A stretch of DNA of 64,000 nucleotides from Mesobacillus jeotgali (lineage in GTDB: Bacteria > Bacillota > Bacilli > Bacillales > Cytobacillaceae): positions 1,114,501 through 1,178,500 of the forward strand of contig NZ_CP134494.1 of NCBI RefSeq assembly GCF_031759225.1, given 5' to 3'. The notes below the pieces were generated by a model. That model searched no databases, had not been told where the DNA came from, and saw only the letters and a program-made list of their open reading frames with translations. Of this stretch, positions 27,372 to 56,374 are shown in pieces. The translations under genes were made by a program, and so were the position numbers. The first letter of the stretch is position 1, and each line of letters begins with the position of its first letter.

Positions 27372-27527
27372 TTCGGACAAAACAATGTCTCGGGCATGAG
27401 ATTTTGTCTGAAGTGACCTCGTGTTCGGACAAAATCGTGTCTCAGGCATACGATTTTGTCCTATGTGCTACGGGGTTCGGACAAAACAACGTCTCAATCA
27501 GGGGTTTTTGTCCGATGAGACCTGTAT
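27372..27527. repeat. Three tandem 52-bp repeats with inverted arms (array A)
   Basis: Copies begin at 27372, 27424 and 27476 with TTCGGACAAAA, exactly 52 bp apart. The middle copy has perfect 12-bp arms GGACAAAATCGT / ACGATTTTGTCC around an 11-bp loop. The outer copies keep the GGACAAAA / TTTTGTC core while other bases vary. The array lies between the divergent usp and PBP genes. No ORF or promoter role is evident. Confidence 0.9.
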
Positions 27528-27738
27528 TTGGTGATGAAGTTACCTTAACCTCGCCTGTGCAGTGGGATTTTTAATCAGGAGTCCCAAAAACCAAAGCCGT
27601 AAGGTATATATATTGGCCACACTGCTTGCTTATATGCCTTTTTTCCTCATTATTAGCCAATATGTGTTAATGCCTTTTAAAAATGGGTAAAAGAAAGTGT
27701 CATATTTATAAACTATTTTTAAAAGGTTGGGGTGCTCA

Positions 27739-30123
27739 GTGAGCAAGAATTCAATAGTTACACGTTTTCTAAGAGGCTGGAAAAGGCTACATATGAACCA
27801 GGTGCTGGTATTGTCAGTTTCGACAGCGGTACTGGCATTCTTGAGTTTCTTCCATGTGTATTCTGAGGGGGCTGACATTAGCGCATTGAATGATGACATG
27901 GCACAGTCGACCGTCATCTATGATGCGAATGGTGAAGTTGCCAGCAAAATTTCGGCATTGAAAAATGAAGGGATTAAGATAGAGGATGTTCCGGATCATG
28001 TAAAGAATGCCGTCATTGCGATCGAGGACCATCGTTTTTATGAACACGATGGGGTGGACCTTGTGGGGATATCGCGGGCATTTGTCCAGAATGTCAAAGC
28101 AGGCAGCATTGTCGAAGGTGGAAGTACAATTACTCAGCAGTTGACTAAAAATGCTTTGCTTTCGAGTGAAAAGACTTATAAAAGGAAACTCGAAGAATTC
28201 TTTTTGGCGAGGGAAATCGAAAAGCAATATTCCAAAGATGATATCATGCAAATGTACTTGAACCGAATTTATTTCGGTAATGGGTCATGGGGGATTAAAA
28301 GGGCTGCGATGGGTTACTTTGGCAAGGAAGTTAAAGACCTTTCCATAAGCGAAGCAGCCATGCTTGCAGGTTTGATCAAGGCTCCGTCCGCGCTTGATCC
28401 AAATAAGAATTTTGAAGAAGCGATTGAGAGAAGGAATCTTGTCCTGCAAATGATGAAAACCCATGGTTTTATCCAAGAAAAAGAATATAAACAGGCAATT
28501 GCTGAAGAGGTTGTCCTTAATGAAAAAGGCGGAGATCCGTTGCGCGGAAAGTATCCGTATTATGTAGATCACGTCATCGATGAAGCAATCAAGAAATACG
28601 GCCTGACGCAGGAAGAAATTTTGACAGGCGGATTGCAAATCTATACTGAGCTTGATGTCACCATGCAATCAGCTGTGGAAGCTACCTACGCTAAGGACGA
28701 TTTGTTCCCAAAAGGAACGGAAAAACAAATGGTACAAAGCGGTGCTGTACTGGTCGATCCTAAAACCGGAGGCATCCGTGCCCTTGTAGGCGGCCGCGGT
28801 GAGCATGTATTCAGGGGGTATAATCGAGCTACTCAGTTAAAAGCACAGCCAGGTTCAACGATGAAGCCACTTGCCGTATTCGCACCGGCGCTTGAAGAAG
28901 GCTGGGGTGTGACGGACATGCTTAAGGACGAAGAAATGGAATTCAAAGATTACAAGCCTCAAAACTACAATGGTAAATATAAAGGCGAAGTCCCTATGTA
29001 TGAAGCATTGAGAGATTCATTGAATGTGCCTTCTGTATGGCTGCTGGATGAAATCGGAATTGTCAAAGGAATGGATGCAGTAAAGAACTTTGGCATCAAT
29101 CTCGATCCAGTGAATGACCGTAATCTTGGCCTTGCGCTAGGAGGCCTATCGACTGGGGTATCACCGGTAACAATGGCTGAAGCATATTCAGCATTGGCCA
29201 ATAAGGGCGAACGTCATGAAACACATGCCATCACAAAGATTATTGATAAAGAAGGAAATACTATTGTTGAATATGAAGGGAAGAAGAGCCGTGCTGTTTC
29301 AAAAGAAACTGCCGAGAAAATGACGACAATGCTTCTTGGTGTCGTCCAGGAAGGCACAGGGAAAGGTGCACAAATTCCTGGCAGGGAAATAGCAGGCAAA
29401 ACTGGCTCAACTCAAGTACCGATTGAAGGGATCAAAGGAACGAAAGACCAGTGGTTTGTAGGGTATACTCCACAGCTTGTCGGCGCTGTATGGGTTGGTT
29501 ATGACAAGACAGATCAGGAACACTTTTTAACCACGACAAGCAGTGAAGGGGCAGCTCTGGTTTTCAAGGACTTCATGGCGGAAGCATTGAAAGATACTAA
29601 AGCAGAATCCTTCAATGTTCCTCCGCTTTCAAAATTTATCGAGGAACACAAGAAGCAGCAGCGTGCCAAGTCTGTAAAAGAGCTTGAATCAAGAATCAAA
29701 AAGGAATCAGAAAAGCTTAAAAAGCAATGGGAAGAGGCAAAGAAGAAGATAAAAGACAAGAAAGAAAAGCCGAAAGAAGAAGCGAATAAGGAAACAAAAA
29801 CACAATCTGCCGAAGCGTCAACGAACTCTTCCAGCAGCAATGACACCAGTGAGAAAAAAGATAATGGTGATTCAATGGATACTGGTGGAACTGCCGGCGG
29901 AGATGGAAATACCGGCGAAGATGGAGATGCCGGTGGTGAAGGAGATACCGGTGGTGAAGGAGATACCGGTGGTGAAGGAGATGCCGGTGGTGAAGGAGAT
30001 GCCGGTGGTGAAGGAGATGCCGGTGGTGAAGGAGATGCCGGTGGTGAAGGAGATACCGGTGATGAAGGAGACACCGGTGATGAAGGAGACACCGGTGATT
30101 CTGGGGACGAGTCTTCAGGATGA
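27739..30123 (+). CDS. Class A penicillin-binding protein with repetitive acidic tail
   Basis: A bifunctional peptidoglycan glycosyltransferase/transpeptidase of about 794 residues, anchored by one N-terminal helix (LVLSVSTAVLAFLSFFHVY). The glycosyltransferase domain shows AIEDHRFYEHDGVD, GGSTITQQLTKN and the YLNRIYFGNGSWGI block. The transpeptidase has SxxK in PGSTMKPLAVF, SLN in DSLNVPS and KTGST. A basic/charged coiled segment (about 635-690) leads to a Ser/Thr region and a Gly-Glu-Asp-rich tail of six-residue repeats. Start GTG 27739 follows GGGGTG. It resembles PBP1A/PbpF-type enzymes; exact orthology is uncertain. The tail would lie outside the membrane in the wall. Confidence 0.88.
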   Translation: MSKNSIVTRFLRGWKRLHMNQVLVLSVSTAVLAFLSFFHVYSEGADISALNDDMAQSTVIYDANGEVASKISALKNEGIKIEDVPDHVKNAVIAIEDHRFYEHDGVDLVGISRAFVQNVKAGSIVEGGSTITQQLTKNALLSSEKTYKRKLEEFFLAREIEKQYSKDDIMQMYLNRIYFGNGSWGIKRAAMGYFGKEVKDLSISEAAMLAGLIKAPSALDPNKNFEEAIERRNLVLQMMKTHGFIQEKEYKQAIAEEVVLNEKGGDPLRGKYPYYVDHVIDEAIKKYGLTQEEILTGGLQIYTELDVTMQSAVEATYAKDDLFPKGTEKQMVQSGAVLVDPKTGGIRALVGGRGEHVFRGYNRATQLKAQPGSTMKPLAVFAPALEEGWGVTDMLKDEEMEFKDYKPQNYNGKYKGEVPMYEALRDSLNVPSVWLLDEIGIVKGMDAVKNFGINLDPVNDRNLGLALGGLSTGVSPVTMAEAYSALANKGERHETHAITKIIDKEGNTIVEYEGKKSRAVSKETAEKMTTMLLGVVQEGTGKGAQIPGREIAGKTGSTQVPIEGIKGTKDQWFVGYTPQLVGAVWVGYDKTDQEHFLTTTSSEGAALVFKDFMAEALKDTKAESFNVPPLSKFIEEHKKQQRAKSVKELESRIKKESEKLKKQWEEAKKKIKDKKEKPKEEANKETKTQSAEASTNSSSSNDTSEKKDNGDSMDTGGTAGGDGNTGEDGDAGGEGDTGGEGDTGGEGDAGGEGDAGGEGDAGGEGDAGGEGDTGDEGDTGDEGDTGDSGDESSG
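29929..30102 (+). repeat. In-frame 18-bp tandem repeats in the PBP gene
   Basis: About ten copies of RCCGGTGGTGAAGGAGAT starting at 29929 and every 18 bp, encoding [A/T]-G-G-E-G-D units. The last copies drift to TGDEGD. The in-frame repeats probably vary in copy number between strains by slippage. The PBP catalytic domains end well before this segment. Confidence 0.95.
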
Positions 30124-30160
30124 TAAAGAACAAGATGATAACGATAACTAATACGAACAA

Positions 30161-30192
30161 AGCACAGGAGATCGTTCTCCTGTGCTGTTTTT
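30161..30192 (+). terminator. Intrinsic terminator of the PBP gene
   Basis: AGCACAGGAGA-tcgt-TCTCCTGTGCT stem followed by GTTTTT. Confidence 0.9.
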
Positions 30193-30234
30193 ATGAAAGC
30201 AACAAAACTTATGAAAAGAGCTTAAGTTAAGACC

Positions 30235-30265
30235 TTAAAAAAAGACCTGCATGGGGCAGGTCTTT
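30235..30265 (-). terminator. Intrinsic terminator on the minus strand
   Basis: AAAGACCTGC/GCAGGTCTTT hairpin. Reading leftward it is followed by a T-rich tract, and it ends the transcript of the small membrane protein and the HPr-like gene. Confidence 0.8.
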
Positions 30266-30277
30266 ACAAACATCCAA

Positions 30278-30346
30278 TTATATTAAACTTAAAAGGAAAC
30301 CGATCACGACGACAGCGCCGATGATCATTAGAATGGTTCTTACCAC
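30278..30346 (-). CDS. Tiny single-helix membrane protein (22 aa)
   Basis: GTG at 30346 is preceded by GAGGTGAA at 5 bp. The product starts MVRTILMIIGAVVVIGFLLS and is almost entirely one hydrophobic helix. A terminator follows directly, and the HPr-like gene lies 39 bp upstream on the same strand, so it may be a second cistron. Function is unknown. Ribosome site, terminator and composition together support translation, but the frame is very short. Confidence 0.55.
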   Translation of the reverse strand: MVRTILMIIGAVVVIGFLLSLI

Positions 30347-30385
30347 GAAACTTCACCTCAGTTATTGGTTTATCTATTACTGTGA

Positions 30386-30709
30386 CTATATCTGGAATGA
30401 TTCAGAAGACTCGATCAGGCGCTTGCGTTTTACTCGGAGCACAGAAGCCTCATTTGTAAGCAGCTTGGTAAGCTGATTTAATTTCGGTTCTACATCTGTG
30501 CCTTCCATAATAATTTTTAAAGTTGTATTTGGTTCTACCGTCAGCAAGAATGAAACAAGTTTGGACAATGAGGTTGCCTCAACAGCCTTTTGGCGGCTAT
30601 ATAGGTAAGTGGCACCGTCCAATTTCTTTGCTGCCTGATAAATTTCAAGCATTTTTTTCATTGTGAATCTTTTCTGGACCATAACATTTGATGACATAAT
30701 TTCCTTCAT
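30386..30709 (-). CDS. HPr-fold protein lacking the phosphorylatable histidine
   Basis: A 107-residue protein. From about residue 25 it matches the HPr/PtsH fold pattern (AAKKLDGATYLYSRQKAVEATSLSKLVSFLLTVEPNTTLKIIMEGTD, then a C-terminal helix). The H-A-R-P active-site motif is replaced by RFTMKKML, so the protein cannot act as a normal phosphocarrier. A Ser sits near the HPr Ser46 position (TSLSKL). It might bind partners as Crh does, but this is inference. AAAGGAG lies 9 bp before ATG 30709. Confidence 0.7.
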   Translation of the reverse strand: MKEIMSSNVMVQKRFTMKKMLEIYQAAKKLDGATYLYSRQKAVEATSLSKLVSFLLTVEPNTTLKIIMEGTDVEPKLNQLTKLLTNEASVLRVKRKRLIESSESFQI

Positions 30710-30965
30710 TTATATAAACTCCTTTAATGAATCATTTTATTAGGTTAGTAGAATATTACCCCGTTAAGTTGGTCCGAAAACCTTTTGAGGTGAAAATGGG
30801 CGAAGTTGGCAGGTGCAGCTTAAAAGGAGCCTGATGCTAGGATGGTTCTCCAGGACATTGGCGCTCAGTCTCAGGGAGGAGAAAGAAACGGTCAGGAGAA
30901 AGTGTTTGAGGACCTGAACATTACGCTAAAATGAAGCTATTAAAAGAGATGCGAGGAGTAATCTT
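30710..30965. other. Intergenic region before the MFS gene
   Basis: Non-coding. It contains the divergent upstream regions of the HPr-like gene and of the MFS transporter. No operator, riboswitch or convincing promoter was recognised; GATGCGAGGAG precedes the MFS start. Confidence 0.4.
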
Positions 30966-32246
30966 ATGAAAAAATTTGCGGAGATTTTCAGGAACATGAG
31001 TTTCACCAAGTTATTTTTAGCTAACTTCACTTCTCAAATGGGGAGTACCATTGGGTTGACTGCCTTCATGTTTTTCTTGCTTGACCGTTTCAGCTCCCAG
31101 CCAGCTTATGCGACTATAACCGAGCTCATGTATTCCCTGCCAATGCTGGCGGTCTTTTTCTTGATCGGAGTGCTCGCTGACAGGATGGACCGGCAAAAAA
31201 TAGCGGTTTACTGTGATTGGATCAGTGCGGCTTTATCTTTGGCATTAATTGCTGCTATCTATATTGGCTGGATGCCTCTTGTCTTTGCTGCCCTGTTTTT
31301 GAGAAGTGCGGTTCAAAAATTCTTTTTCCCGGCTGAACATGGGATGGTTCAGGGAATATTGAAGAAAGAAGACTACACAACAGCTGCTGGTCTGAATCAG
31401 CTTGTCATGAGCCTGTTCATGCTGTTCGGCAATGGTCTCGGAGTTCTCGCTTACTGGTCGATCGGCATCTATGGCGCCATCTTAGTTGACACCTTGTCCT
31501 TCATCATCAGTGCGCTGCTCATCCAGAAGACGGTTGTTCCGCATGAAGCCCGACTTCCAAACGGCACTCATTCGCTGAAGGATTTGAACCTCAAATTGGT
31601 TTTAAGGGATTTTAAACACGGTTTTATGTATGTGATGAGCAGCAAATTGCTGTTCGCACTGATCGTTGGGTTTTTCATCTTCGGAATCGTCAATGGCGGC
31701 TTTTCGGTAATGCCAATCTTCATTCTGAAATATAAGCTTGCGCCGGAAACGTATGAGGAATACTCAATTGTTGTCGGTTTAGTATTTGGAATCGGCGTAC
31801 TGATTGGAAGTTTCATTGCATCCTTGCTTTCTCAAAAAATCAAGCTCTATCACCTGATTTCTATAGGTCTGCTGATTTCAGGGAGTTTCACGGCACTTGC
31901 ATCACTGCCAAACAATATTTACCTGTTCTTAGGTCTACTGTTTATCTCTGCTCTGGCTCTGCCGCTTATAAATATCGGGATCGGCGGCTGGCTTCCAAGC
32001 ATCATTGATCCAAAAATGATGGGCAGGGTACAGGGATTGATCAGCCCGCTCAACATGTTCTCACATTCTCTGACACTTGCTTTCATTGCCTACAGCTTCC
32101 CGTCCATTCTTACCATTGAAATGTTATATTGGATTGTCGGCGGCTGCCTTGCCATCGTAGGAGTGTTTTACATGATGGTATTACCGAGGCTTGCAGAGGC
32201 GAATGAGACTGCTGTTAATGAGGCAACAGTCGAGCAGGGGATATAG
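30966..32246 (+). CDS. MFS transporter
   Basis: A 426-residue major facilitator with twelve predicted helices. The loop 2-3 signature is GVLADRMDRQKIAVYCDW. The N-terminal LFLANFTSQMGSTIGLTAFMFFLLDRF and the overall pattern resemble the MFS_3 (enterobactin/macrolide exporter-like) group. Substrate is unknown, and efflux is more likely than uptake by family resemblance. It is monocistronic, lying upstream of the sigY unit on the same strand with only a weak terminator-like stretch (AAAGTCCTTTCGGGGGCTTTTTTG) between. Confidence 0.83.
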   Translation: MKKFAEIFRNMSFTKLFLANFTSQMGSTIGLTAFMFFLLDRFSSQPAYATITELMYSLPMLAVFFLIGVLADRMDRQKIAVYCDWISAALSLALIAAIYIGWMPLVFAALFLRSAVQKFFFPAEHGMVQGILKKEDYTTAAGLNQLVMSLFMLFGNGLGVLAYWSIGIYGAILVDTLSFIISALLIQKTVVPHEARLPNGTHSLKDLNLKLVLRDFKHGFMYVMSSKLLFALIVGFFIFGIVNGGFSVMPIFILKYKLAPETYEEYSIVVGLVFGIGVLIGSFIASLLSQKIKLYHLISIGLLISGSFTALASLPNNIYLFLGLLFISALALPLINIGIGGWLPSIIDPKMMGRVQGLISPLNMFSHSLTLAFIAYSFPSILTIEMLYWIVGGCLAIVGVFYMMVLPRLAEANETAVNEATVEQGI

Positions 32247-32290
32247 AAAAGTCCTTTCGGGGGCTTTTTTGATGTATTTTAAAAAAACTT

Positions 32291-32315
32291 TGAACGAATC
32301 TTTACTTTGTACGTC
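32291..32315 (+). promoter_or_regulatory. Candidate SigY autoregulatory promoter
   Basis: TGAACG at 32291-32296 and CGTC at 32312-32315, spaced by 15 bp, match the known SigY consensus (TGAACG ... CGTC). The site lies about 65 bp before sigY. ECF sigma factors usually transcribe their own operon. Confidence 0.75.
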
Positions 32316-32380
32316 TTAATAATAAATAATCAATTAGTAGATAATTTTTTGGGGTGGCGGGGAAAGAGAGGCATGCTTTG

Positions 32381-32932
32381 ATGGATGAGAAAGACTTAAT
32401 CAATAGCGCTAAAAAAGGCGACCACCGATCGTTTGCTGTGCTGTTCAGGAATCATTATCCCCTGCTGGTAAAATACCTGATGAAAATAACGATGAATCCT
32501 GATGTCGCAGAGGAAATTGCGCAAGCAACGATGGCTAAATGTGTGGAGAAAATTCATTTATTCAATGGTAAATCCAAATTCTCTTCATGGCTGATCAGCA
32601 TAGCAACGAATATGTTTATTGATCAGCAGCGAAAAAAGAAGCGCGAGCGGGAATGGAACGAAGGAGAAGCAGCGTCACGGAAGTTACAGTGGCATATGGA
32701 ATCGAAAAATGAGGAATGGACAGATGCACTGGCTGCATTATCCAGGCTGACAGAAGAAATGCGTATCCCGTTAATCCTTAAGCATTATTATGGCTATTCG
32801 TATGATGAGATTGGTGAAATCCTGAATATCGCAGCTGGTACTGCAAAGTCTAGAGTCCATCATGGACTTTTAGCTGTTAGAAGGGAGCTGAAAGTAGATG
32901 AAAAACCAAAAGGGAATCTCGCCAGAACATGA
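32381..32932 (+). CDS. sigY: ECF RNA polymerase sigma factor SigY
   Basis: A 183-residue sigma-70 family ECF factor. Region 2 covers SFAVLFRNHYPLLVKYLMKITMNPDVAEEIAQATMAKCVEKIHLFNGKSKFSSWLISIATNMFIDQQRKKKR. Region 4 covers MRIPLILKHYYGYSYDEIGEILNIAAGTAKSRVHHGLLAVRREL in pieces typical of SigY. The preferred ATG 32381 has GAGAGG at suitable spacing; a GTG nine codons earlier is possible. The 3' end overlaps yxlC by 35 bp. In B. subtilis SigY responds to nitrogen starvation and is held by YxlC/YxlD; regulation here is inferred to be similar. Confidence 0.93.
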   Translation: MDEKDLINSAKKGDHRSFAVLFRNHYPLLVKYLMKITMNPDVAEEIAQATMAKCVEKIHLFNGKSKFSSWLISIATNMFIDQQRKKKREREWNEGEAASRKLQWHMESKNEEWTDALAALSRLTEEMRIPLILKHYYGYSYDEIGEILNIAAGTAKSRVHHGLLAVRRELKVDEKPKGNLART

Positions 32933-33245
32933 AAATATGGATAAGGAATTTTTCGATACCATCAGCGCCATCAATAATGGGTTGGACAAACTGGACTCCA
33001 TCGATCCTTATGTCCCAGATGATAAATGGTTTGAGCATATGGTGTTGGAACAAAAGGAAATACAAAAAAAGAAGTATCGCCGGGAATTAGCGTGGTTCAT
33101 ATTAAGCGCTTTGCTGATTTTAAGCGGGGTGATCTTCACCATGCTGGAACTGCCGACAGTGTTCTACATGCTCCAGGCCGTGACGCTCGTAATTACAGCG
33201 ATCTATAGTTATAAAGGTGTGCAAAAGCAGGTGGACAGCAGATGA
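32898..33245 (+). CDS. yxlC: SigY anti-sigma component YxlC
   Basis: A 115-residue protein with an N-terminal acidic cytoplasmic part (MDKEFFDTISAINNGLDKLDSIDPYVPDDKWFEHMV) and two C-terminal membrane helices (ELAWFILSALLILSGVIF, TVFYMLQAVTLVITAIYSY). In B. subtilis YxlC, with YxlD, is a negative regulator of SigY. Overlap with sigY upstream and yxlD downstream (ATGA-type) indicates coupled translation and balanced stoichiometry. Confidence 0.88.
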   Translation: MKNQKGISPEHENMDKEFFDTISAINNGLDKLDSIDPYVPDDKWFEHMVLEQKEIQKKKYRRELAWFILSALLILSGVIFTMLELPTVFYMLQAVTLVITAIYSYKGVQKQVDSR

Positions 33246-33442
33246 ACGAGGAACTGTCACCTGTCATGCTGGCCGTGGTTGTTGTGATCCTGTTGGTGCA
33301 GAGCATTTTTCTTTTTACAAATGCCCGGAAGCATGGCCATAATTATTGGCTTTGGGGAATCATCGGGCTGATCCAGGCACCAATGCCTTTGCTCTTTTAT
33401 CTGCTATTTGTACGAAAAATTTGGCGGCGAAAATCTTTGTAA
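33242..33442 (+). CDS. yxlD: SigY regulatory membrane protein YxlD
   Basis: A 66-residue protein with two membrane helices (LAVVVVILLVQSIFLF and WLWGIIGLIQAPMPLLFYLLF) separated by a short NARKHGHNYW loop, which resembles the phospholipase D-nuclease_N-like small proteins. It overlaps yxlC by 4 bp. The further B. subtilis genes yxlE, yxlF and yxlG are not present; the next genes are a BmrCD-type exporter. Confidence 0.85.
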   Translation: MNEELSPVMLAVVVVILLVQSIFLFTNARKHGHNYWLWGIIGLIQAPMPLLFYLLFVRKIWRRKSL

Positions 33443-33476
33443 AAGAAAAATGATGAAAAATAGTGAAAAGTTAGAA

Positions 33477-33509
33477 TTGACATTTTGACTGGTAAGGTGA
33501 TAACCTTAC
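33477..33509 (+). promoter_or_regulatory. Promoter with overlapping palindromic operator, bmr leader
   Basis: TTGACA at 33477-33482 is followed, 16-17 bp later, by a -10-like GATAAC/ATAACC. A perfect palindrome GTAAGGT-gata-ACCTTAC (33492-33509) covers the spacer and -10, as expected for a repressor or MerR-type site. The regulator is unknown. Confidence 0.55.
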
Positions 33510-33548
33510 AAAGGAATGGAAAAAATAACTAAAAGGAGGGTTATCGAT

Positions 33549-33617
33549 ATGAACATTGTAGCAATTGTAAAATACGTACAACTTAATAAACGTAACCCAT
33601 CCTTCTGCTATAATTGA
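33549..33617 (+). CDS. Leader peptide upstream of the BmrCD-type exporter (BmrB-like)
   Basis: A 22-residue ORF with AAAGGAGGG 7 bp before its ATG. It starts MNIVAIVKYVQLNKRNPSF and ends in CYN. It precedes two terminator-like hairpins and a multidrug ABC exporter pair. In B. subtilis bmrCD is controlled by ribosome-mediated attenuation at the leader peptide BmrB, so this ORF probably plays the same part: antibiotic-stalled ribosomes would change the downstream folding. It ends 28 nt before the first hairpin. Confidence 0.75.
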   Translation: MNIVAIVKYVQLNKRNPSFCYN

Positions 33618-33645
33618 TTTTTTAATCAAGTTGCTCTGTGACTGC

Positions 33646-33685
33646 AAAGGCATGGGTTGCGCATCTGCGTGACGTATGCCTTTTT
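33646..33685 (+). terminator. First attenuator-type hairpin in the bmr leader
   Basis: AAAGGCAT (33646) pairs with ATGCCTTT (33676), followed by TTTTT. It lies 28 nt after the leader peptide stop codon, so ribosome position could affect it. Confidence 0.65.
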
Positions 33686-33705
33686 CTGTCTTTATCGATT
33701 GATTC

Positions 33706-33738
33706 AGGACATATCGCATGCCGCGGTATGTCCTTTTT
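33706..33738 (+). terminator. Second attenuator-type hairpin in the bmr leader
   Basis: AGGACATA (33706) pairs with TATGTCCT (33727), with inner CGC/GCG pairs and a TTTTT tract. It precedes the second small ORF. Confidence 0.7.
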
Positions 33739-33785
33739 CATGTTCAGACAATTTCCATTCCAAAATATATCGAGGAGGAAACAAT

Positions 33786-33842
33786 ATGTGCAAATCAAAT
33801 GAAAAGAAACTCGCAAAAAAGGAATATCTAGAAAGCGGCTAG
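33786..33842 (+). CDS. Second leader mini-ORF before bmrC
   Basis: An 18-residue ORF, MCKSNEKKLAKKEYLESG, preceded by AGGAGG at 7 bp. This is one of the strongest ribosome sites in the region. It ends 31 bp before bmrC and lies beyond the two hairpins, so it would be made only on read-through. It might tune translation of bmrC; no homologue is recognised. Confidence 0.55.
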   Translation: MCKSNEKKLAKKEYLESG

Positions 33843-33873
33843 TCGGATTTTTTATAACAGAAAGGAGTGATTG

Positions 33874-37634: not shown

Positions 37635-37640
37635 CGGAAT

Positions 37641-37901: not shown

Positions 37902-37925
37902 TCTGGAGCGGAAATAGACATAATG

Positions 37926-39551: not shown

Positions 39552-39583
39552 AAGCCAGTCTATTTAATTATTGTTTATTGCAA

Positions 39584-47358: not shown

Positions 47359-47378
47359 TTTGTATATCTCCTTTAAAT

Positions 47379-48482: not shown

Positions 48483-48684
48483 AGCTTCTCCTCATTTTCT
48501 TTTAGGCTGCATAAGGCAGCACCTTGTAAAATAGGCAAACACACATATTGCATCCTATGAATAGTAGTGGTTATTGGTGATTTTTAAGGTAGGTGCAGAA
48601 TGTCGCCGGACCCGAACTTTTGGCAATCAGCAACATAGTTTGTTATAGTGGAGTGGAGCGTTTAACGTAGAAGGAGTGATTTAA

Positions 48685-49044
48685 ATGGCAGTCAATACTT
48701 ATGATTCAGCCTACGAATTAGAGAAAGCAATCAGGAACAGTTCGGAATACACAGAATTAAAAAAACTATATGATGCTGTGAATAATGATGAATCAGCAAA
48801 AAGGATGTTTGAAAACTTCCGCAATATCCAGATGCAGCTTCAGGAAAAGCAAATGACTGGTCAGGAAATTACCCAGGAAGAAGTAGAGCAGGCACAAAAG
48901 ACAGTCGCGCTTGTCCAGCAGCATGAACTTATTTCTAAGCTGATGGAAGCAGAACAAAGAATGAGCATGGTCATTGCCGAGCTTAACCAGATCATCATGA
49001 AGCCTCTTGAAGAGCTTTACGGAAACCCGAACCAGCAGCAATAA
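48685..49044 (+). CDS. yheA: YheA (YlbF/YmcA family) protein
   Basis: A 119-residue helical protein (YDSAYELEKAIRNSSEYTELKKLYDAV ... FRNIQMQLQEKQMTGQEITQEE) of the YlbF/YmcA fold. YlbF and YmcA act with YaaT in RNase Y-dependent RNA maturation and in development; YheA itself is poorly studied. AGAAGGAGTG lies 6 bp before the ATG. TTGGCA/TATAGT elements around 48620-48648 may be its promoter. B. subtilis yheB, normally adjacent, is absent. Confidence 0.9.
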   Translation: MAVNTYDSAYELEKAIRNSSEYTELKKLYDAVNNDESAKRMFENFRNIQMQLQEKQMTGQEITQEEVEQAQKTVALVQQHELISKLMEAEQRMSMVIAELNQIIMKPLEELYGNPNQQQ

Positions 49045-49056
49045 TAGAATGACAGG

Positions 49057-49083
49057 ACTCCCGCCGATGTGCGGGAGTTTTTT
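49057..49083 (+). terminator. Intrinsic terminator of yheA
   Basis: ACTCCCGC-cgatgt-GCGGGAGT stem with TTTTTT. Confidence 0.9.
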
Positions 49084-49104
49084 GTTTTGGAATATAGGAA
49101 AAAC

Positions 49105-49695
49105 TATTGCATTCGAGGTTATGACAGACAAAAATCAACGGAAAAGAGGAAAAACTGTCCGTCATCTAAGGGATGACGGACAAAAATCAGAGAAAAAGAA
49201 GAAAGACTGTCCGTCATCTAAGGGATGACGGAAAAAAATCAGAGAAAAAGAGGAAAAACTGTCCGTCATCAAGGTTATGACGGAAAAAAATCAGAGAAAA
49301 AGAGGAAAAACTGTCCGTCATCAAGGTTATGACGGACAAAAGTAAGAGGAAAAAAGGGAAAACTGTCCGTCATCAAGGTTATGACGGACAAAAATCAGAG
49401 AAAAAGAGGAAAAACTGTCCGTCAACTAAGGGATGACGGACAAAAATCAGCGGAAAAGAAGAAAAACTGTCCGTCATCAAGGTTATGACGGACAAAAGTA
49501 AGAGGAAAAAAGGGGAAACTGTCCGTCATCAAGGTTATGACGGACAAAAATCAGAGGAAAAGAAGAAAAACTGTCCGTCATCAAGGTTATGACGGACAAA
49601 AATCAGAGGAAAAGAGGAATATCTGTCCGTCATCAAGGTTATGACGGACAAAAATAAGAGGAAAAAAGGAAAAACTGTCCGTCATCTATGACTCT
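49105..49695. repeat. Twelve tandem 52-bp hairpin repeats (array B)
   Basis: GTCCGTCAT occurs at 49157, 49209, 49261, 49313, 49365, 49417, 49469, 49521, 49573, 49625 and 49677, always exactly 52 bp apart; a decayed copy precedes at 49105. Each unit holds a hairpin GTCCGTCAT-N7-ATGACGGAC and a purine-rich tract (AAAAATCAGAGGAAAAGAGG type). Some copies change the loop to TAAGG with an extra C-G pair. It fills the gap between yheA and the HAD gene; no ORF is supported. Confidence 0.95.
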
Positions 49696-49858
49696 TTTGG
49701 GCGGAAGGAGACTTATCATATACGCTGCCCTCATTCCTTCTGTGGACTGCGTCCAGCAAAGGAAGCTAATATCAAAATCCTGCCCATGTTCTATTCTCTT
49801 GCTTTCTATCATACAAGTTAAATAAGGACAAAAACACCGAAGAAATGGGGGCATAATT

Positions 49859-50731
49859 ATGATTTACCGTCTTCTTGCGCTTAACGTGGATGGAACGATT
49901 CTCCAATCAAATGGAAGGGTCCATAAATCCACGAGGGATGCGATTGAGTACGTTCAGCAAAAAGGAGTGTATGTGACTCTAGTAACTTCAAGAAGCTTTC
50001 CATCAGCCAAAAAAGTGGCTAAAGCGCTGAAAATAAATTCATTGCTTGTGACTCACCTCGGATCCTACATCTCTAATGACCTTCGCAGTGATCCGGTTTT
50101 TGAAAAACGGATTTCAGAGGATGTCACTTTCCAGCTCGTCAGGTTCCTCGAGAGCTTTCCATGCCAAATCCGTCTTGTGCATGAAAAGTTTTCTCTGGCA
50201 AACAAGTATAAATTGAACCACAATCTGCTGGCGAAAACTGTATTCACTTCAGGTGACCCGATTTTTTACTCACAGCAGTTCACTGATTCTATCAGTGAAA
50301 CATTAGTCAATGATCCAGTCTCACCTCCAAAAATTGAAGTCTATTTCGAGTACGAAGAGGATTTGAAGGATGCTCAGCAGGCGATAAACGGAATGTTCTC
50401 AGAAGTGTCCCTGTCAAGGCTGAATGAATACAGACTCGATATCATGCCTCAAGGTGTTTCCAAGCTGAACGGCCTGATCCAACTGGGTGAGCACCTTGGA
50501 ATCCCATTAAAGGAAATGGTCGCAATAGGTGATGCCTATGACGATATTGATATGATAGAAGCAGCCGGTCTTGGCGTCGCGATGTGGAACGCACCTGTAG
50601 AAGTAAAAAAGGCTGCCGATTGGGTGACCCGCTCGAACAATCAGCATGGTGTCAGCTATATGGTCAAAGAACACTTTCGCAAACAACAGCCAATCGAATT
50701 TCTCAGAAAAATGAATATTATAAAAATGTAA
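49859..50731 (+). CDS. yhaX: Cof-type HAD protein with altered nucleophile, YhaX-like
   Basis: A 290-residue haloacid-dehalogenase-superfamily protein of the Cof subfamily. Motif I reads ALNVDGTI: the first Asp of DxDGT, the phosphoryl-accepting nucleophile, is Asn9. Motif II is LVTSRS, and motif IV GDAYDDIDMI is intact. Without the nucleophile, normal phosphatase activity is doubtful. It resembles B. subtilis YhaX, a sporulation-expressed protein. GAAATGGGGGC precedes the ATG. The 52-bp array lies directly upstream. Confidence 0.85.
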   Translation: MIYRLLALNVDGTILQSNGRVHKSTRDAIEYVQQKGVYVTLVTSRSFPSAKKVAKALKINSLLVTHLGSYISNDLRSDPVFEKRISEDVTFQLVRFLESFPCQIRLVHEKFSLANKYKLNHNLLAKTVFTSGDPIFYSQQFTDSISETLVNDPVSPPKIEVYFEYEEDLKDAQQAINGMFSEVSLSRLNEYRLDIMPQGVSKLNGLIQLGEHLGIPLKEMVAIGDAYDDIDMIEAAGLGVAMWNAPVEVKKAADWVTRSNNQHGVSYMVKEHFRKQQPIEFLRKMNIIKM

Positions 50732-50738
50732 ACATACC

Positions 50739-50776
50739 AAGCATGCCTGGGGTGAAAACACCACAGGCATGCTTTT
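50739..50776 (+). terminator. Intrinsic terminator of yhaX
   Basis: AAGCATGCCTG ... CAGGCATGCTT stem followed by TTTGC. Confidence 0.8.
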
Positions 50777-50956
50777 GCTGTGTTTGTGAGTATTTTAGTA
50801 CTAGACTGTAGGTTTAATTACAATGAGCCTAATCGGAAGTCTATGATACTCAGTCGGACTAGCGGCGAAAACTGGTACCTTTTACACTGTCTTGACCTTT
50901 GAATCATACTTCTATTACACTTATTGAAGTATGTTTAATTGAAAAAGGTGAATCTC

Positions 50957-52471
50957 ATGAGAATTAATATAAAAGGTATACAAGATGAAAGATTTCAGCG
51001 TCCTTTAGGATTGATTGCCAATTTGTTTTTTGAAGAATCCGAAGTAGCATTAAGCGAGTCGGAGCAGGAAGCCGATGCAGCTATAGAATTCGATGTTCAG
51101 AATGTCGAAGGGCAGTTTTATGTAAAAGCAGCCCTGGTGGCGGATGGGAAGACTTTTACAGCTGAGGCCAATAAAGAAGTTCCAGCCGGTTTGAGCGAAA
51201 AGGAAGAATTCAAATTGCTTAAAACCGTCATTTCAAGGGCTTATTTAAAAGTACTTCAAGACTGGACAGGAATGATCCAGAAATGGGGCATCCTAACCGG
51301 CGTCCGCCCTACGAAGCTTTTGCATAAAAAGCTTCGTGAAGGGATTGACCAGCAGGTTGCTCATAAAGAACTGAAGGAACAGTATTTGATATCAGATGAA
51401 AAAATTCATCTTATGCAGAAAATAGTTGACCGCCAGCTTGCGGTCCTGCCTGATTTGTACGATCTGAAAAATGGTGTCAGCATTTATATTGGCATTCCTT
51501 TTTGCCCGACGAAATGTGCTTACTGCACATTCCCGGCATATGCCATCAACGGCCGACAGGGATCTGTGGACTCTTTCCTTGGCGGTCTCCACTACGAAAT
51601 CCGCCAAATAGGGGACTGGCTGAAGAAGAATGATATCAAGATTACGACCGTTTACTATGGTGGCGGCACGCCGACCTCGATTACCGCTGAAGAAATGGAT
51701 ATGCTGTACGAAGAGGTCCATCAGTCATTCCCGGATGTTGAGAATATCAGGGAAGTGACTGTCGAAGCAGGCCGCCCGGACACAATCACACCTGAAAAAC
51801 TGGAGGTGCTGAAAAAGTGGAATATCGATCGCATCAGCATTAACCCTCAGTCTTACATCCAGGAAACCTTGAAGGCAATCGGACGTCACCATACAGTCGA
51901 AGAAACGATCGATAAATTCCATCTGGCCCGAGAAATGGGCATGAACAATATCAACATGGATTTGATCATCGGCCTTCCTGGAGAAGGGACGGAGGAATTT
52001 GCACATACTCTTGCTGAAACGGAAAAGCTAATGCCAGAATCCTTGACGGTCCATACTCTTTCTTTTAAAAGAGCGTCCGAAATGACAAGGAATAAACAGA
52101 AGTATAAGGTTGCTGGCCGCGATGAAATAGAAAGAATGATGAATATGGCTGAATCATGGACGAAGGAACATGATTACGTGCCATACTATCTGTACAGGCA
52201 GAAGAACATTCTTGGAAACTTGGAGAATGTCGGCTATGCTTTCCCGGAACAAGAGAGTCTGTACAATATCATCATCATGGAAGAGCAGCAAACCATCATC
52301 GGCCTTGGATGCGGAGCATCGAGCAAGTTCATCGACCCTGAAACAGGTGTAATCACCCAATTCTCAAATCCAAAAGATCCGAAGTCATATAACGACAGTT
52401 TTGAAGAATACGCGAATAAGAAAATCGAGATTCTCGACTCATTATTCAATAAGACTAGCTCCCGAAGTTAA
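50957..52471 (+). CDS. hemZ: Coproporphyrinogen III dehydrogenase-like radical SAM protein HemZ
   Basis: A 504-residue radical SAM protein. An N-terminal domain of about 160 residues precedes the cluster motif IPFCPTKCAYCTF (C-x3-C-x2-C). YYGGGTPTSI and NINMDLIIGLPGEG are further SAM-core motifs of the HemN/HemW group. HemZ is assigned to anaerobic heme synthesis, converting coproporphyrinogen III, in B. subtilis, though the group also contains heme chaperones. ATG 50957 follows AAAAGGTGA; the ORF could begin six codons earlier. The gene has its own terminator. Confidence 0.88.
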   Translation: MRINIKGIQDERFQRPLGLIANLFFEESEVALSESEQEADAAIEFDVQNVEGQFYVKAALVADGKTFTAEANKEVPAGLSEKEEFKLLKTVISRAYLKVLQDWTGMIQKWGILTGVRPTKLLHKKLREGIDQQVAHKELKEQYLISDEKIHLMQKIVDRQLAVLPDLYDLKNGVSIYIGIPFCPTKCAYCTFPAYAINGRQGSVDSFLGGLHYEIRQIGDWLKKNDIKITTVYYGGGTPTSITAEEMDMLYEEVHQSFPDVENIREVTVEAGRPDTITPEKLEVLKKWNIDRISINPQSYIQETLKAIGRHHTVEETIDKFHLAREMGMNNINMDLIIGLPGEGTEEFAHTLAETEKLMPESLTVHTLSFKRASEMTRNKQKYKVAGRDEIERMMNMAESWTKEHDYVPYYLYRQKNILGNLENVGYAFPEQESLYNIIIMEEQQTIIGLGCGASSKFIDPETGVITQFSNPKDPKSYNDSFEEYANKKIEILDSLFNKTSSRS

Positions 52472-52487
52472 ATTTCGGGAGTTTTTT
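52459..52487 (+). terminator. Intrinsic terminator of hemZ
   Basis: GCTCCCGAA-gttaaa-TTCGGGAG stem, overlapping the hemZ stop codon, followed by TTTTTT. Confidence 0.85.
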
Positions 52488-52621
52488 ATGGTTATGTAGA
52501 ACGATTAAGGAAGGCTACATTCCCTTATTCTTTTAAAAAATCTAAATAGTGAGAAAAAAGGTTTTTAAATATAACTTCTCCCTATATAATAAAAATAGAA
52601 GGAAAAATGGAGGGGATGAAG

Positions 52622-53413
52622 GTGACAATTGAATTTTCAACGGACACTGTAAAATTAGACATTGATGGACGTGTGGCGGTTCTTGAGTTGAACAGACCTG
52701 AAGCATTGAATGCACTTGATGTGGAAATGATCAAGGGAATCACGATGAACCTTAAGGAAATCTGTAAGTCTGATGAAATTGATATCGTGTTGATTAAAGG
52801 AGCCGGTCGGGCTTTCTCTGCAGGCGGGGATATCAAGACAATGCTTTCGAATACAAATGAAAGCGATTTCTATCATGTAATGGACGATATCCATGATATG
52901 ATCGTGACACTGTACAGCATGCCAAAAGTGACCATCAGCGCAGTAACGGGTGCTGCGGCCGGGCTGGGATTCAGTCTAGCACTCGCGACTGATTACATAA
53001 TCGCTGAGCCATCAAGCAAGATTGCAATGAATTTTATTGGCATCGGTTTGATCCCGGATGGAGGAGGCCACTTCTTCATGGAAGAACGTCTTGGGGAAAC
53101 GAAGGCGAAGCAGCTGATTTGGGAAGGAAAAACCCTTTCTGCGGATGATGCGTTGACACTGGGCCTTATTGACGAGGTGCCTGAAGGCGATTTTACAGAA
53201 GCAGTGGAAGCAAAAATACAAGGATGGCTGAACAAACCAGTTCAGGCTATGATTAAAACAAAGAAAATTCTTGCGGAGAAAAACAGGCCTGCACTGTTGA
53301 AAATCCTTGAACTCGAAAAATACGGGCAGTTTAAAATGCGCCAGACAGAAGACCACAAGGAAGGCATCGCTGCCTTCCTTGAAAAGAGGAAGCCGCAGTT
53401 CAAAGGGAAATAA
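52622..53413 (+). CDS. yhaR: Enoyl-CoA hydratase/isomerase family protein, YhaR-like
   Basis: A crotonase-fold protein of 263 residues. LNRPEALNALD at the N-terminus, the oxyanion-hole loop AGRAFSAGGDIKTM and AVTGAAAGLGFSLALATDYIIA are visible. The catalytic Glu positions of true hydratases are partly replaced (IGLIPDGGGHFFM), so isomerase or other acyl-CoA chemistry is possible. GTG 52622 is chosen because GGAGGGG lies 6 bp before it, too close to ATG 52616. It stands alone between hemZ and a YhzD-like gene. Confidence 0.83.
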   Translation: MTIEFSTDTVKLDIDGRVAVLELNRPEALNALDVEMIKGITMNLKEICKSDEIDIVLIKGAGRAFSAGGDIKTMLSNTNESDFYHVMDDIHDMIVTLYSMPKVTISAVTGAAAGLGFSLALATDYIIAEPSSKIAMNFIGIGLIPDGGGHFFMEERLGETKAKQLIWEGKTLSADDALTLGLIDEVPEGDFTEAVEAKIQGWLNKPVQAMIKTKKILAEKNRPALLKILELEKYGQFKMRQTEDHKEGIAAFLEKRKPQFKGK

Positions 53414-53418
53414 ACAAA

Positions 53419-53452
53419 AAAAGCAAAGAGGATTTGAGCCTCTTTGCTTTTC
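53419..53452. terminator. Bidirectional intrinsic terminator
   Basis: AAAGCAAAGAGG-atttgag-CCTCTTTGCTTT stem between converging yhaR and the YhzD-like gene. Confidence 0.85.
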
Positions 53453-53638
53453 TTATGGACGGAAAAGAACCAGCTTGCCTCTCGGTGATGTGCAGCGGTG
53501 CGTTTTGTCGCTGAGGTTTTTTTCTTCAAGCATTCTTGCGCCAATTTCCTTTGCTTCTTCATCATTGGCAGCCTGAAATGATTCGTCAATCAGTTTTTCC
53601 CCATTTGGTTCAAAGGCTGTCAGTTTGTAAGTATCCAT
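53453..53638 (-). CDS. YhzD-like small protein
   Basis: A 61-residue soluble protein: YKLTAFEPNGEKLIDESFQAANDEEAK at the N-terminus and KTHRCTSPRGKLVLFRP at the end. The layout matches the small YhzD family of Bacillaceae, of unknown function. ATG 53638 follows AAAAGGGGAAG; the longer frame lacks a ribosome site. Convergent with yhaR. Confidence 0.7.
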   Translation of the reverse strand: MDTYKLTAFEPNGEKLIDESFQAANDEEAKEIGARMLEEKNLSDKTHRCTSPRGKLVLFRP

Positions 53639-53685
53639 CACAACTTCCCCTTTTAAAAGATTAGTAAGTATAAAATTAACTTCGA

Positions 53686-53912
53686 GAATTGTCCAGCTCA
53701 AGCGCCTAACCAGTTTTCATCCCTGTTATTGCTTCTTCGAGTATCTTGCGAGAAGCGGTAGCTTTGAGCAGCACGAGACGCTTGTCTAGCTGCGGCTCCT
53801 AGCTCCTCGAGACGTTTCGGTCCTGCCAATGAAGTCAAAAAGCGACTTCACTGTCACGCCCTCCAGCGCTTGTCGGGGCTGACCAAGGCGCTTACGCTTT
53901 TCTTGCAAAATT
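53686..53912. repeat. Bacillaceae-type interspersed intergenic repeat
   Basis: A GC-rich segment unlike its AT-rich surroundings, starting TTGTCCAGCTCAAGCGCCTA, with CTAGCTGCGGCTCCTAGCTC in the middle. It ends in a block (53870-53903, TTGTCGGGGCTGACCAAGGC then GCTTACGCTTTTC). I know similar text from many Bacillus-related genomes as a dispersed repeat of unknown role. A shorter relative of the end block lies at 57171-57204 in this window. No ORF. Confidence 0.75.
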
Positions 53913-54033
53913 CAGATGATTACTATTATTTTTGCATAACTTTTTTAAATATGCAAAACAAAAATATAATAAAATATGAAACTATTTCCATATATAATTC
54001 GTAGTATCTTATTGGAAAAGGAGGAATTTGAAT

Positions 54034-54933
54034 ATGGAATTAAAACTCGAACAGGTTACAAAGAGATTTGGCAATTTTACAGCAGTTAACCAGCTTTCAC
54101 TAAATATACCTGAAAAAGAAATGTTCGGTTTCCTTGGTGCAAATGGTGCTGGGAAGACGACAACTTTCCGGATGATTCTCGGCCTGCTGGATGTCTCGGA
54201 AGGAAAGATCACCTGGGATGGGAAGCCGATCAATTATGACACAAGCAGTATCATTGGTTACCTGCCTGAGGAGAGAGGGCTTTATCCAAAATTAAAGGTT
54301 CGCGAACAGATTGTCTATCTTGCGAGGTTAAGAGGGATGCAAAAACAAGCGGCCCTCAAGGAGCTTGATTACTGGCTTAATCGTTTCAAGGTCCCGGAAT
54401 ATGCTGATAAAAAGGTTGAAGAGCTTTCGAAGGGCAATCAGCAAAAAATCCAGTTCATTGCCGCGGTCATCCATAAGCCAAGGCTGTTGATCCTTGATGA
54501 GCCTTTCAGCGGACTGGATCCCGTCAATGTGGAACAATTAAAGGAAGCAGTGCTTGAGCTTAAAAATGCGGGTACGACGATTGTATTTGCAAGTCACCGC
54601 ATGGAGCATGTGGAAGAAATGTGTGAGCATATTTGCATCATGCACAAAGGAAGTCCTGTCGTTCACGGTGCCCTGAAAGAAATCAAGCGATCCTTTGGTA
54701 AAAAGAATTTGGTCATCCATGCTGATTTTGATACTACTTTCCTAAAGGAATATCCTGGAGTGACGAGAGCAAAATCAACAGCAGAAGGAATACACCTGCA
54801 AATCACAGGTGAACAAGTTGCTGAATCCATTTTAAAAGAGATTGTTGGTAAAGGTTTTATCCGCAAGTTCGTCCTTGAAGAACCAAGCCTCAATGATATT
54901 TTCATAGAAAAGGTGGGTGATTCTTATGAATAA
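54034..54933 (+). CDS. yhaQ: ABC transporter ATP-binding protein YhaQ
   Basis: A 299-residue ATPase of the NatA/DUF4162 type. Walker A GANGAGKTT lies near residue 38, signature LSKGNQQKIQFIAAVIHKPRLLILDEPFSGLDPVN (LSxGN variant typical of the group), switch His in ASHRMEH. A C-terminal domain of about 80 residues follows. ATG 54034 has AGGAGG at 9 bp. It overlaps yhaP by 8 bp. In B. subtilis YhaQ-YhaP are proposed to form a sodium-efflux-like exporter. Confidence 0.9.
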   Translation: MELKLEQVTKRFGNFTAVNQLSLNIPEKEMFGFLGANGAGKTTTFRMILGLLDVSEGKITWDGKPINYDTSSIIGYLPEERGLYPKLKVREQIVYLARLRGMQKQAALKELDYWLNRFKVPEYADKKVEELSKGNQQKIQFIAAVIHKPRLLILDEPFSGLDPVNVEQLKEAVLELKNAGTTIVFASHRMEHVEEMCEHICIMHKGSPVVHGALKEIKRSFGKKNLVIHADFDTTFLKEYPGVTRAKSTAEGIHLQITGEQVAESILKEIVGKGFIRKFVLEEPSLNDIFIEKVGDSYE

Positions 54934-56179
54934 TTTTTTCATTATCCTGATCCATACATACATGAGTAAACTTAAAACAAAATCTTTCCTGGTCACTACC
55001 ATCCTGACCGCAGGGATTATGTTGGCGCTAACGAATATGACGAACATTATCGATTTTTTCAACAAGGGTGATGAAGCTGAAAAAATCGCTGTTATCGATG
55101 AGTCAGGGCAGCTAATTGAACCACTGGAGCAGCAGTTGAAGATGGTGAACAAGGAGCTGGTCCTGGAGAAGTTTTATGGAGATGAGGCAAAAGCAAGGAA
55201 AGCCGTCGAGGAAGGGGAATATAAGGGCCTCCTTCAGCTGAGCTTGAACAATGAAGAACTTCCGTCAGCAGCCTACCAGGCGATGAGCATTGCCGATTCT
55301 GCTATTCCCGCTGATCTGCAGGCCGCCTTGCAGCAGATTAAAACTGCTATGGCTTCGACACAAATCAATATCGCCCCGGATGAACTGGAAAAGCTTTATG
55401 CGCCTGTAGAGTTTGAAAAAACAGCTCTTGAAAAAGATGCGAAAACGGAAGAGGAATTGAACCAAGCTAGAGGCCTGGTCTATGTCTTGCTTTTCATCAT
55501 TTATTTTGCGGTCATCATGTACGCCAATATGATCGCAATGGAGGTCGCTACCGAGAAATCATCAAGAGTAATGGAAATCATGATTTCAAGCGTATCGCCG
55601 ATCAAGCAAATGTTCGCGAAAATCCTGGGCATCGGGCTGTTAAGCTTGACACAACTCGCAGTCCTCTTGTTAGTAGGGTACATCTCAATCAAACAGAATC
55701 TCGAAAGCATGGAGGGCGGATTCTTTGAGTTCTTTGGTTTTGGGAATGTTGCAGCAAGCACAATCATTTATGCGGTTATCTTCTTCATATTAGGATATTT
55801 CCTGTATGCGACAATGGCTGCATTCCTTGGCTCGCTTGTCAGCAGGATTGAAGATGTCCAGCAAATGATCACACCGATGACTTTGCTAGTGGTTGCAGGT
55901 TTCATGATGGCAATGTTCGGACTGGGCCAGCCAGAAGCGCCATTTATAAAATATACGTCGTTCATTCCATTCTTCTCGCCGATGCTGATGTTCCTGCGAG
56001 TTGGAATGCTGAACATCCCTTTCTGGGAAATTGCCTTATCAATCGGTATCCTTGTGGCAACGATAGCCTTCCTGGCAGTATTCGGTGCGAGGGTATACAG
56101 AGGCGGAGTGCTGATGTACGGAAAATCGAATTCCTTCAAGGACATCAAAAAAGCACTTCAGCTAACGAAAAACGAATAA
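54926..56179 (+). CDS. yhaP: ABC transporter permease YhaP (NatB-like)
   Basis: A 417-residue ABC-2 type permease. One N-terminal helix (KSFLVTTILTAGIMLALTNM) is followed by a large extracytoplasmic domain (residues about 50-185). Five further helices are in the C-terminal half, including EVATEKSSRVMEIMISSVSPIKQMFAKILGIG, the conserved coupling region. It forms an exporter with YhaQ; the substrate is not shown by sequence, although Na+ efflux is proposed for relatives. Confidence 0.9.
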   Translation: MNNFFIILIHTYMSKLKTKSFLVTTILTAGIMLALTNMTNIIDFFNKGDEAEKIAVIDESGQLIEPLEQQLKMVNKELVLEKFYGDEAKARKAVEEGEYKGLLQLSLNNEELPSAAYQAMSIADSAIPADLQAALQQIKTAMASTQINIAPDELEKLYAPVEFEKTALEKDAKTEEELNQARGLVYVLLFIIYFAVIMYANMIAMEVATEKSSRVMEIMISSVSPIKQMFAKILGIGLLSLTQLAVLLLVGYISIKQNLESMEGGFFEFFGFGNVAASTIIYAVIFFILGYFLYATMAAFLGSLVSRIEDVQQMITPMTLLVVAGFMMAMFGLGQPEAPFIKYTSFIPFFSPMLMFLRVGMLNIPFWEIALSIGILVATIAFLAVFGARVYRGGVLMYGKSNSFKDIKKALQLTKNE

Positions 56180-56184
56180 CAACC

Positions 56185-56216
56185 AAAAGCTGCAATCCTG
56201 TGATTGTGGCTTTTTT
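56185..56216 (+). terminator. Intrinsic terminator of yhaQP
   Basis: AAAGCTGCAATC-ctgt-GATTGTGGCTTT stem with TTTTTT. Confidence 0.8.
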
Positions 56217-56270
56217 ACAAGGAATTTGATTGAATGTATGGAATAAGTATTATGTAGAAAGAAATAGGTA

Positions 56271-56374
56271 TCTGCCCGAAATACAGCAGGAACCCAGATT
56301 TCGGTCACATAAGAGTCAAACTTCTGCCCGGGATGGAGAGCGACAAGTAATTTCGGTCACAAGTTTACTAGTTT
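56271..56374. repeat. Two tandem 52-bp repeats before the peptidase gene (array C)
   Basis: TCTGCCCG occurs at 56271 and 56323, and ATTTCGGTCACA at 56298 and 56350; both pairs are 52 bp apart. Within the first copy CCGAAAT and ATTTCGG form an inverted repeat. The sequence differs from the arrays at 27372 and 49105, but the period is the same. Confidence 0.8.

Follow-up and report, generated by a model that had tools for sequence, protein, structure and literature searches.

The three short tandem-repeat arrays considered here lie in a 64-kb stretch of the Mesobacillus jeotgali chromosome (the window; bases 1114501-1178500 of a single-contig 4.63-Mb genome). A sequence-only reading had described them as three arrays of unrelated sequence that share an exact 52-bp period, contain an inverted repeat in their units and may stem from a common mechanism. 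Analysis of the window and of the rest of the genome indicated that a period of 51 to 53 bp dominates the non-coding tandem arrays. The commonest grammar found among them is a 27-bp imperfect palindrome, TGTC-N19-GACA, followed by a 25-bp linker of free sequence and fixed length. The features of the window are as follows.

27372..27523, no strand assigned: array 1, three 52-bp units of family A (TTCGGACAAAA ... TTTTGTCCGAA), within a divergent gene pair
27405..27431, no strand assigned: TGTC-N19-GACA element of array 1, 27 bp, exact copy
27457..27483, no strand assigned: TGTC-N19-GACA element of array 1, 27 bp, exact copy
49116..49686, no strand assigned: array 2, eleven 52-bp units, each the palindrome TGTCCGTCATCAAGGTTATGACGGACA plus a purine-rich 25-bp linker
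56273..56359, no strand assigned: array 3, two degenerate 52-bp units of a second grammar, TGNCC-N25-GGNCA (56273-56307 and 56325-56359)
26710..27237, minus strand: universal stress protein family gene (Pfam PF00582), left of array 1
27727..30123, plus strand: penicillin-binding protein gene with transglycosylase and transpeptidase domains (Pfam PF00912, PF00905), right of array 1
48685..49044, plus strand: YlbF/YmcA family gene (Pfam PF06133), upstream of array 2
49057..49084, plus strand: intrinsic-terminator-like hairpin of the YlbF-family gene (ACTCCCGC..GCGGGAGT, then a T run), just upstream of array 2
49859..50731, plus strand: HAD hydrolase gene (Pfam PF08282), downstream of array 2
54917..56179, plus strand: ABC-2 family transporter gene (Pfam PF12698), upstream of array 3
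56384..57088, plus strand: peptidase S51 family gene (Pfam PF03575), downstream of array 3

Tandem Repeats Finder (TRF) reported array 1 with a period of 52 at 27372-27496 (2.4 copies, 75% matches), and a gap-free comparison lengthened it to three copies (27372-27523) with spacings of 52 and 52. Array 2 was reported with the same period at 49116-49686 (11.0 copies, 89% matches) and holds eight exact TGTC-N19-GACA elements between 49156 and 49624. Array 3 was not reported by TRF at a score of 30; its sole exact repeat in the gap-free comparison was 12 nt long, at 56298 and 56350 with a spacing of 52, and no inverted pair in it reaches 12 nt, although its first unit holds the pair CCGAAAT-N15-ATTTCGG. 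Arrays 1 and 2 show the inverted repeat clearly, and in the two units of array 3, a weak locus, it is short and degenerate. The observation itself was confirmed and extends over the whole genome. The first two arrays are not unrelated, since both contain TGTC-N19-GACA, in 2 and 8 exact copies respectively.

The periods of tandem arrays were assessed in 60 evenly spaced 20-kb stretches of the genome (the even sample; 1.2 Mb, 26% of the genome), and 40 further stretches were added to give an enlarged sample of 2.0 Mb. Among the 67 non-coding arrays of the even sample, the period was 51-53 bp in 42, 20-22 bp in 12, 39-42 bp in 4 and of other lengths in 9, whereas none of the 29 coding arrays had a period of 51-53 bp. 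The shared period therefore goes beyond chance, as had been supposed, and the histogram of intergenic periods was peaked at 51-53 bp and not flat. The exact 52-bp period was borne out only as a narrow genome-wide range: the even-sample TRF rows gave 52 bp in 32 cases, 53 bp in 10 and 51 bp in 1, so that 52 is not a strict period and the unit is nearly always 52 or 53 bp. Scaled from the even sample, the genome would hold approximately 162 arrays of this period. The enlarged sample contained 68, with copy numbers of 2.0 to 16.8, and across both samples the arrays formed several families of near-equal length with at least three grammars. The array 3 type, TGNCC-N25-GGNCA, was matched by 3 of the 42 even-sample arrays, and the pattern CGGACA-N(12..42)-TGTCCG had 147 matches in the genome compared to 9 for its reversed form. 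Many units contain an inverted repeat, in line with the sequence-only reading.

Two other groups of arrays were observed in the genome. One is a 53-bp family with TACCCTTATG..CATAAGGGTA-like arms, which differs from the 52-bp arrays in both length and arms. The other is a second intergenic class with a period of 20-21 or 40-41 bp, including the TTTATTGGCGA and TCGCTATAAAAA types; it often lies shortly 3' of genes, its non-coding members were absent from divergent gaps (0/17), and it resembles a published satellite class of 20-21 nt. The remaining common non-coding periods of the sample, 20-22 and 39-42 bp, correspond to about two and about four helical turns.

At least one TGTC-N19-GACA element was present in 34 of the 68 arrays of the enlarged sample and absent from the other 34. 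In the even sample, the TRF consensus showed GACA/TGTC gaps of 25 and 19 in 20 arrays and of 26 and 18 in one more, while an array at 1942456, seemingly of the same family, lacks TGTC. The two-unit pattern TGTC-N19-GACA-N25-TGTC-N19-GACA, with 16 fixed bases, had 563 matches in the genome and was present in all 10 sampled genomes of its genus. Of the 397 genomes surveyed across the order, 69 carried it, representing 30 of the 135 genera, and the reversed control pattern matched one genome only in the same survey; a phylum-wide draw yielded 2 of 398 genomes, both from the genus of the window. The distribution is patchy within genera, with 184, 15 and 0 matches in the three genomes of one genus and 56, 11 and then five times 0 in another. 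A 20-base form of the grammar was found in at least 118 stretches of named genome contigs; the matches listed include the genera Ureibacillus, Evansella, Thalassobacillus, Lentibacillus and Caldibacillus, and records of Mesobacillus, Neobacillus, Robertmurraya, Litchfieldia and Cytobacillus among them carry the same kind of array. The grammar thus links half of the sampled arrays, and species, and the arrays are not all unrelated in sequence. It is the commonest grammar found in this genome and not the whole of the 52-bp rule.

Records titled Chryseobacterium sp. ISL-80, Paenibacillus sp. BSR1-1 and Sedimentibacter sp. SX930 also carry a Bacillaceae-type array, and these titles may be wrong. 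For a phage origin of the arrays the only match was a single viral contig, IMGVR_UViG_3300007759_000741, which contains the 20-base form; its palindrome resembles that of family C of the M. jeotgali genome, and it may be bacterial flank or the prophage of a relative.

Constraint within the unit was mapped in 18 arrays of the grammar class (class I) from the even sample, comprising 200 units, as mismatch to the consensus of each array. Mismatch was 1.5% at the eight TGTC/GACA core bases, 4.0% in the arms and 12.8% in the centre of the palindrome; in the linker it was 12.6% in the middle and 6.1% and 3.1% at the edges. The core bases therefore vary about eight-fold less than the linker middles. 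The step from unit to unit (n = 182) was 52 bp in 178 cases, 53 bp in three and 51 bp in one. These results indicate that two half-sites of about 14 bp are kept, and that the sequence between them is free while its length is not.

Pairing between the arms was assessed in 113 arrays from other genomes against shuffled partners, a control that does not correct for relatedness. Arm positions 4 to 8 were complementary in 0.80, 0.68, 0.79, 0.85 and 0.80 of the arrays, compared to 0.46, 0.28, 0.31, 0.31 and 0.41 after shuffling, and all four Watson-Crick pair types occurred at each of these positions. On the linker side the pairing excess was small (z at most 2.9). The conserved half-site thus reaches into the linker edges and is weakly paired there, which fits contact with a protein rather than a stem. 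G-T combinations made up 28 of the 123 non-Watson-Crick arm cells of the other genomes, against an expected share of 0.16, but this excess arises at position 4, at which both C and T are frequent; positions 5 to 8 gave 14 of 100, and positions 4 to 8 of the M. jeotgali genome gave 3 of 30. This pattern weakly suggests pairing as DNA rather than as RNA.

The location of the arrays relative to genes was determined with the open reading frame scoring of this analysis, counting gaps longer than 60 bp (n = 727). None of the 42 even-sample arrays overlapped predicted genes over more than half of its length. Convergent gaps held 17 of the 42, co-directional gaps 21 and divergent gaps 4, whereas the 727 gaps comprised 103 convergent, 474 co-directional and 150 divergent ones. 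The convergent excess was significant (Fisher p = 5e-5), with convergent gaps representing about 18% of gap bases by length and one convergent assignment (15862) relying on a gene at a distance of 4.5 kb. The shortfall in divergent gaps was not significant (p = 0.11). A terminator-like hairpin was detected between the YlbF-family stop codon and array 2, with a similar hairpin in the orthologous intergenic sequences. Such a hairpin separated the stop codon from the array at 24 of the 53 facing 3' ends that lay within 500 nt, a rate similar to that at the comparison 3' ends (211 of 533, within 150 nt).

At the array 2 locus, 20 genomes of the genus were informative after one was excluded for a nearby contig end. 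An array was present in 6 of them (4.3 to 11.0 copies), a single palindrome in one and approximately one degenerate unit in two; in the other 11 no array or unit was detected. At the array 1 locus, with three genomes excluded for the same reason, 18 genomes were informative: 6 carried an array (2.2 to 16.6 copies), 2 had one palindrome only, and in the other 10 neither was detected. On the simplest reading of this series, arrays would grow from single units within the genus. With loci that range from none through one unit to about 17 inside one genus, the origin of bacterial satellites can be observed.

Separately from the arrays, the 3' end of the penicillin-binding protein gene beside array 1 contains a coding 18-bp tandem repeat (window 29894-30097, 11.3 copies), which has 6.1, 11.8, 11.9 and 12.0 copies in four relatives.

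Family B (GACAGG-N21-GCTGTC) is asymmetric, and its orientation could be compared with replication. It occurs 211 times forward and 136 times in reverse in the M. jeotgali genome, in which a GC-skew switch near 2.35 Mb marks the terminus, and the first 100 listed places, from 0 to 0.94 Mb, are all forward. All 16 sampled loci follow replication, with 8/8 forward to the left of the terminus and 8/8 reverse to the right, and 2 of the 16 keep this orientation although the flanking genes run opposite. In a second genome, G115, 19 of 22 loci agreed with replication, counted by eye among 100 of 172 places with neighbouring places merged, single places kept and the contig start taken as the origin; in a third, G286, 7 of 7 listed loci were forward, all within the first 0.51 Mb. 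The leading-strand purine fraction was 0.597 in the even-sample arrays compared to 0.514 in other intergenic DNA, and it exceeded 0.5 in 58 of the 68 arrays of the enlarged sample. A purine bias specific to the grammar class was not supported (class I without family B versus the rest, p = 0.31).

The arrays belong with the 52-nt Bacillus satellites and are non-coding. As to their role we tentatively favour, while stopping short of calling it probable, the reading that they act as helically phased binding platforms on double-stranded DNA for a putative dimeric protein. This phased platform is favoured because free sequence combined with fixed length fits a rotational register, 52 bp being five turns at 10.4 bp. 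Also in its favour are the recurrence of the exact grammar across genera, the constraint on half-sites that reach into the linker edges, the position of the arrays outside genes with a preference for convergent gaps, and the other common periods near two and four turns. The putative protein, or a small related set of proteins, would recognise two half-sites in inverted orientation, each spanning about 14 bp around the invariant TGTC core, and the five-turn repeat would place successive dimers on one face of the DNA, permitting cooperative binding or the bridging of arrays. An array would start as a single unit and gain copies through slippage or unequal exchange, with selection preserving the half-sites and their exact spacing while the centre and linker sequences drift. 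Strict helical phasing of 31/21 bp between half-sites was also considered and dropped because the distance between inverted sites changes with the reference point chosen, which leaves the 52-bp repeat as the sole spacing informative about phase.

Several points weigh against this platform. No binding protein was identified, Y1_Tnp being the sole protein family tested. The arms differ between arrays and yet stay complementary, a pattern that a single protein of fixed specificity would not predict. A symmetric dimer does not explain the orientation bias of family B or the purine polarity. The grammar alone fails to explain the period, because it is missing from half of the arrays in the enlarged sample and because, of 27 published consensus families, 5 fit it exactly, 2 fit with one mismatch and 20 do not fit. 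One linker-edge position was paired in 0.80 against 0.37 in 20 arrays of the M. jeotgali genome itself, array 1 sits in a divergent gap, and satellites of B. coagulans are reported as transcribed in the part of PMC8625621 consulted here.

A broader form of the same proposal is doubtful. It holds that a conserved, chromosome-wide Bacillaceae system places a putative protein, or a set of paralogues, on helically phased TGTC-N19-GACA-N25 arrays that are oriented with replication and lie between transcription units, where they might organise or segregate the nucleoid or mark the direction of replication; the grammar would persist in 30 or more genera, with the arms and linkers being replaced over time. 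The 52-nt Bacillus satellites have so far been described as constant in size, with neither a conserved sequence nor an explained function, and the exact cross-genus grammar provides a concrete probe for pull-down and footprinting, with half-site and half-turn linker controls.

The serious rival, which we consider possible but on balance unlikely, is hairpin-based amplification or mobility, in which the 27-bp palindrome would form a hairpin in the single-stranded DNA of the replication fork, and this hairpin would be copied or moved like a repetitive extragenic palindrome (REP) or an attC site, the arrays being the products. This process stays alive because the arms are complementary but variable, and because family B shows replication polarity. 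A stem process does not require the exact 25-bp linker or the conserved linker edges, and in the 53-bp family the spacer motif has the same orientation in both replichores (two arrays, by eye). The sequence-only reading had also suggested co-occurrence with a REP-transposase-like protein. Y1_Tnp (PF01797) had 3 matches in the M. jeotgali genome and was present in 27 of 32 genomes searched, array-rich or not, yet gave no match in G085 (506 grammar hits) or G220 (63), both array-bearing genomes from that genus, so the co-occurrence fails as a requirement and a Y1/RAYT transposase is ruled out as a necessary maker of arrays. Of the common mechanism proposed at the outset, a hairpin process and a phased platform are still the leading readings; the protein was not found.

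Neutral satellites, that is, functionless slippage products whose length is set by the copying mechanism, are less likely than either and in our judgement improbable. Presence in some species only (6 of 20 and 6 of 18 genomes at the two loci above) and the wide spread of copy numbers are what such products would show, but the constraint on particular positions within arrays, and a grammar common to 30 genera whose linkers differ, call for selection or for a process specific to sequence. Least probable is an RNA function, with transcribed tandem hairpins serving as a small RNA, sponge or scaffold: B. coagulans satellites appear in RNA-seq data according to the parts of PMC8625621 and PMC8161180 consulted and G-T combinations are in excess overall, but that excess comes from position 4, the linker keeps its length while its sequence is free, terminator-like hairpins precede arrays about as often as they follow other genes, and no Rfam family was matched at the gathering threshold in the arrays of the window. 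Rfam matches elsewhere in the window were riboswitches only, Guanidine-I (9228-9324) and TPP (22536-22642).

Three known kinds of repeat resemble these arrays in part. REP elements and the bacterial interspersed mosaic elements (BIMEs) that they form are short extragenic palindromes of alternating orientation, arranged in arrays, often 3' of genes and associated with RAYT (Y1) transposases. The present units are likewise short extragenic palindromes in arrays with alternating orientation, but have a fixed 52-bp period and invariant TGTC/GACA ends. Integron attC sites have conserved ends, inner arms that are variable yet complementary, and strand polarity. All three traits recur here; unlike attC sites, the present elements are 27 bp long, stand in tandem without genes and have a linker of fixed length. 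As in a CRISPR array, a palindromic repeat alternates with a linker of constant length. The unique spacers between identical repeats that mark a CRISPR array are nevertheless absent, since within each array the linkers follow a common consensus (mismatch 12.6% in the middle); there are also dozens of arrays in the genome.

The closest likeness is to the satellites studied by Subirana and Messeguer, who reportedly wrote an earlier satellite paper in J Bacteriol in 2020. The sequence-only reading knew of no described system with a 52-bp rule, and this was mistaken: the consulted text of Subirana & Messeguer 2021 (PMC8161180) describes 1886 arrays with units of 51-53 nt from 176 Bacillus genomes, whose size is constant while their sequence varies, together with a second size class of 20-21 nt. 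It proposes nucleoid binding or a small RNA for the 52-nt satellites, with no protein known, and applies a cut-off of at least four repeats (PMC8161180). Array 2 passes this cut-off (11), and array 1 (3) and array 3 (2) fall below it, although array 1 orthologues reach 16.6 copies. The shared traits, as far as that text goes, are non-coding location, a length of 51-53 nt, several families per genome, mostly 4-10 repeats and partial conservation between strains (PMC8161180). A short signal and its reverse complement often occur in one unit in both sets, as shown here for the grammar class, and the published set (PMC8161180) includes B. selenatarsenatis, B. boroniphilus and B. subterraneus. These three are now named Mesobacillus in the genome records searched here. 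The same text denies sequence conservation and gives no spacing rule, whereas here one exact grammar crosses genera; its main text does not use the terms replichore, leading strand, convergent or terminator (PMC8161180). In the literature consulted on a binding protein or on the TGTC-N19-GACA grammar, nothing was nearer than the papers of these authors. The kind of satellite is therefore already published; the grammar, the site-by-site constraint map, the preference for convergent gaps and the replication-linked orientation go beyond PMC8161180, and the grammar, constraint map and polarity are new relative to the related literature examined.

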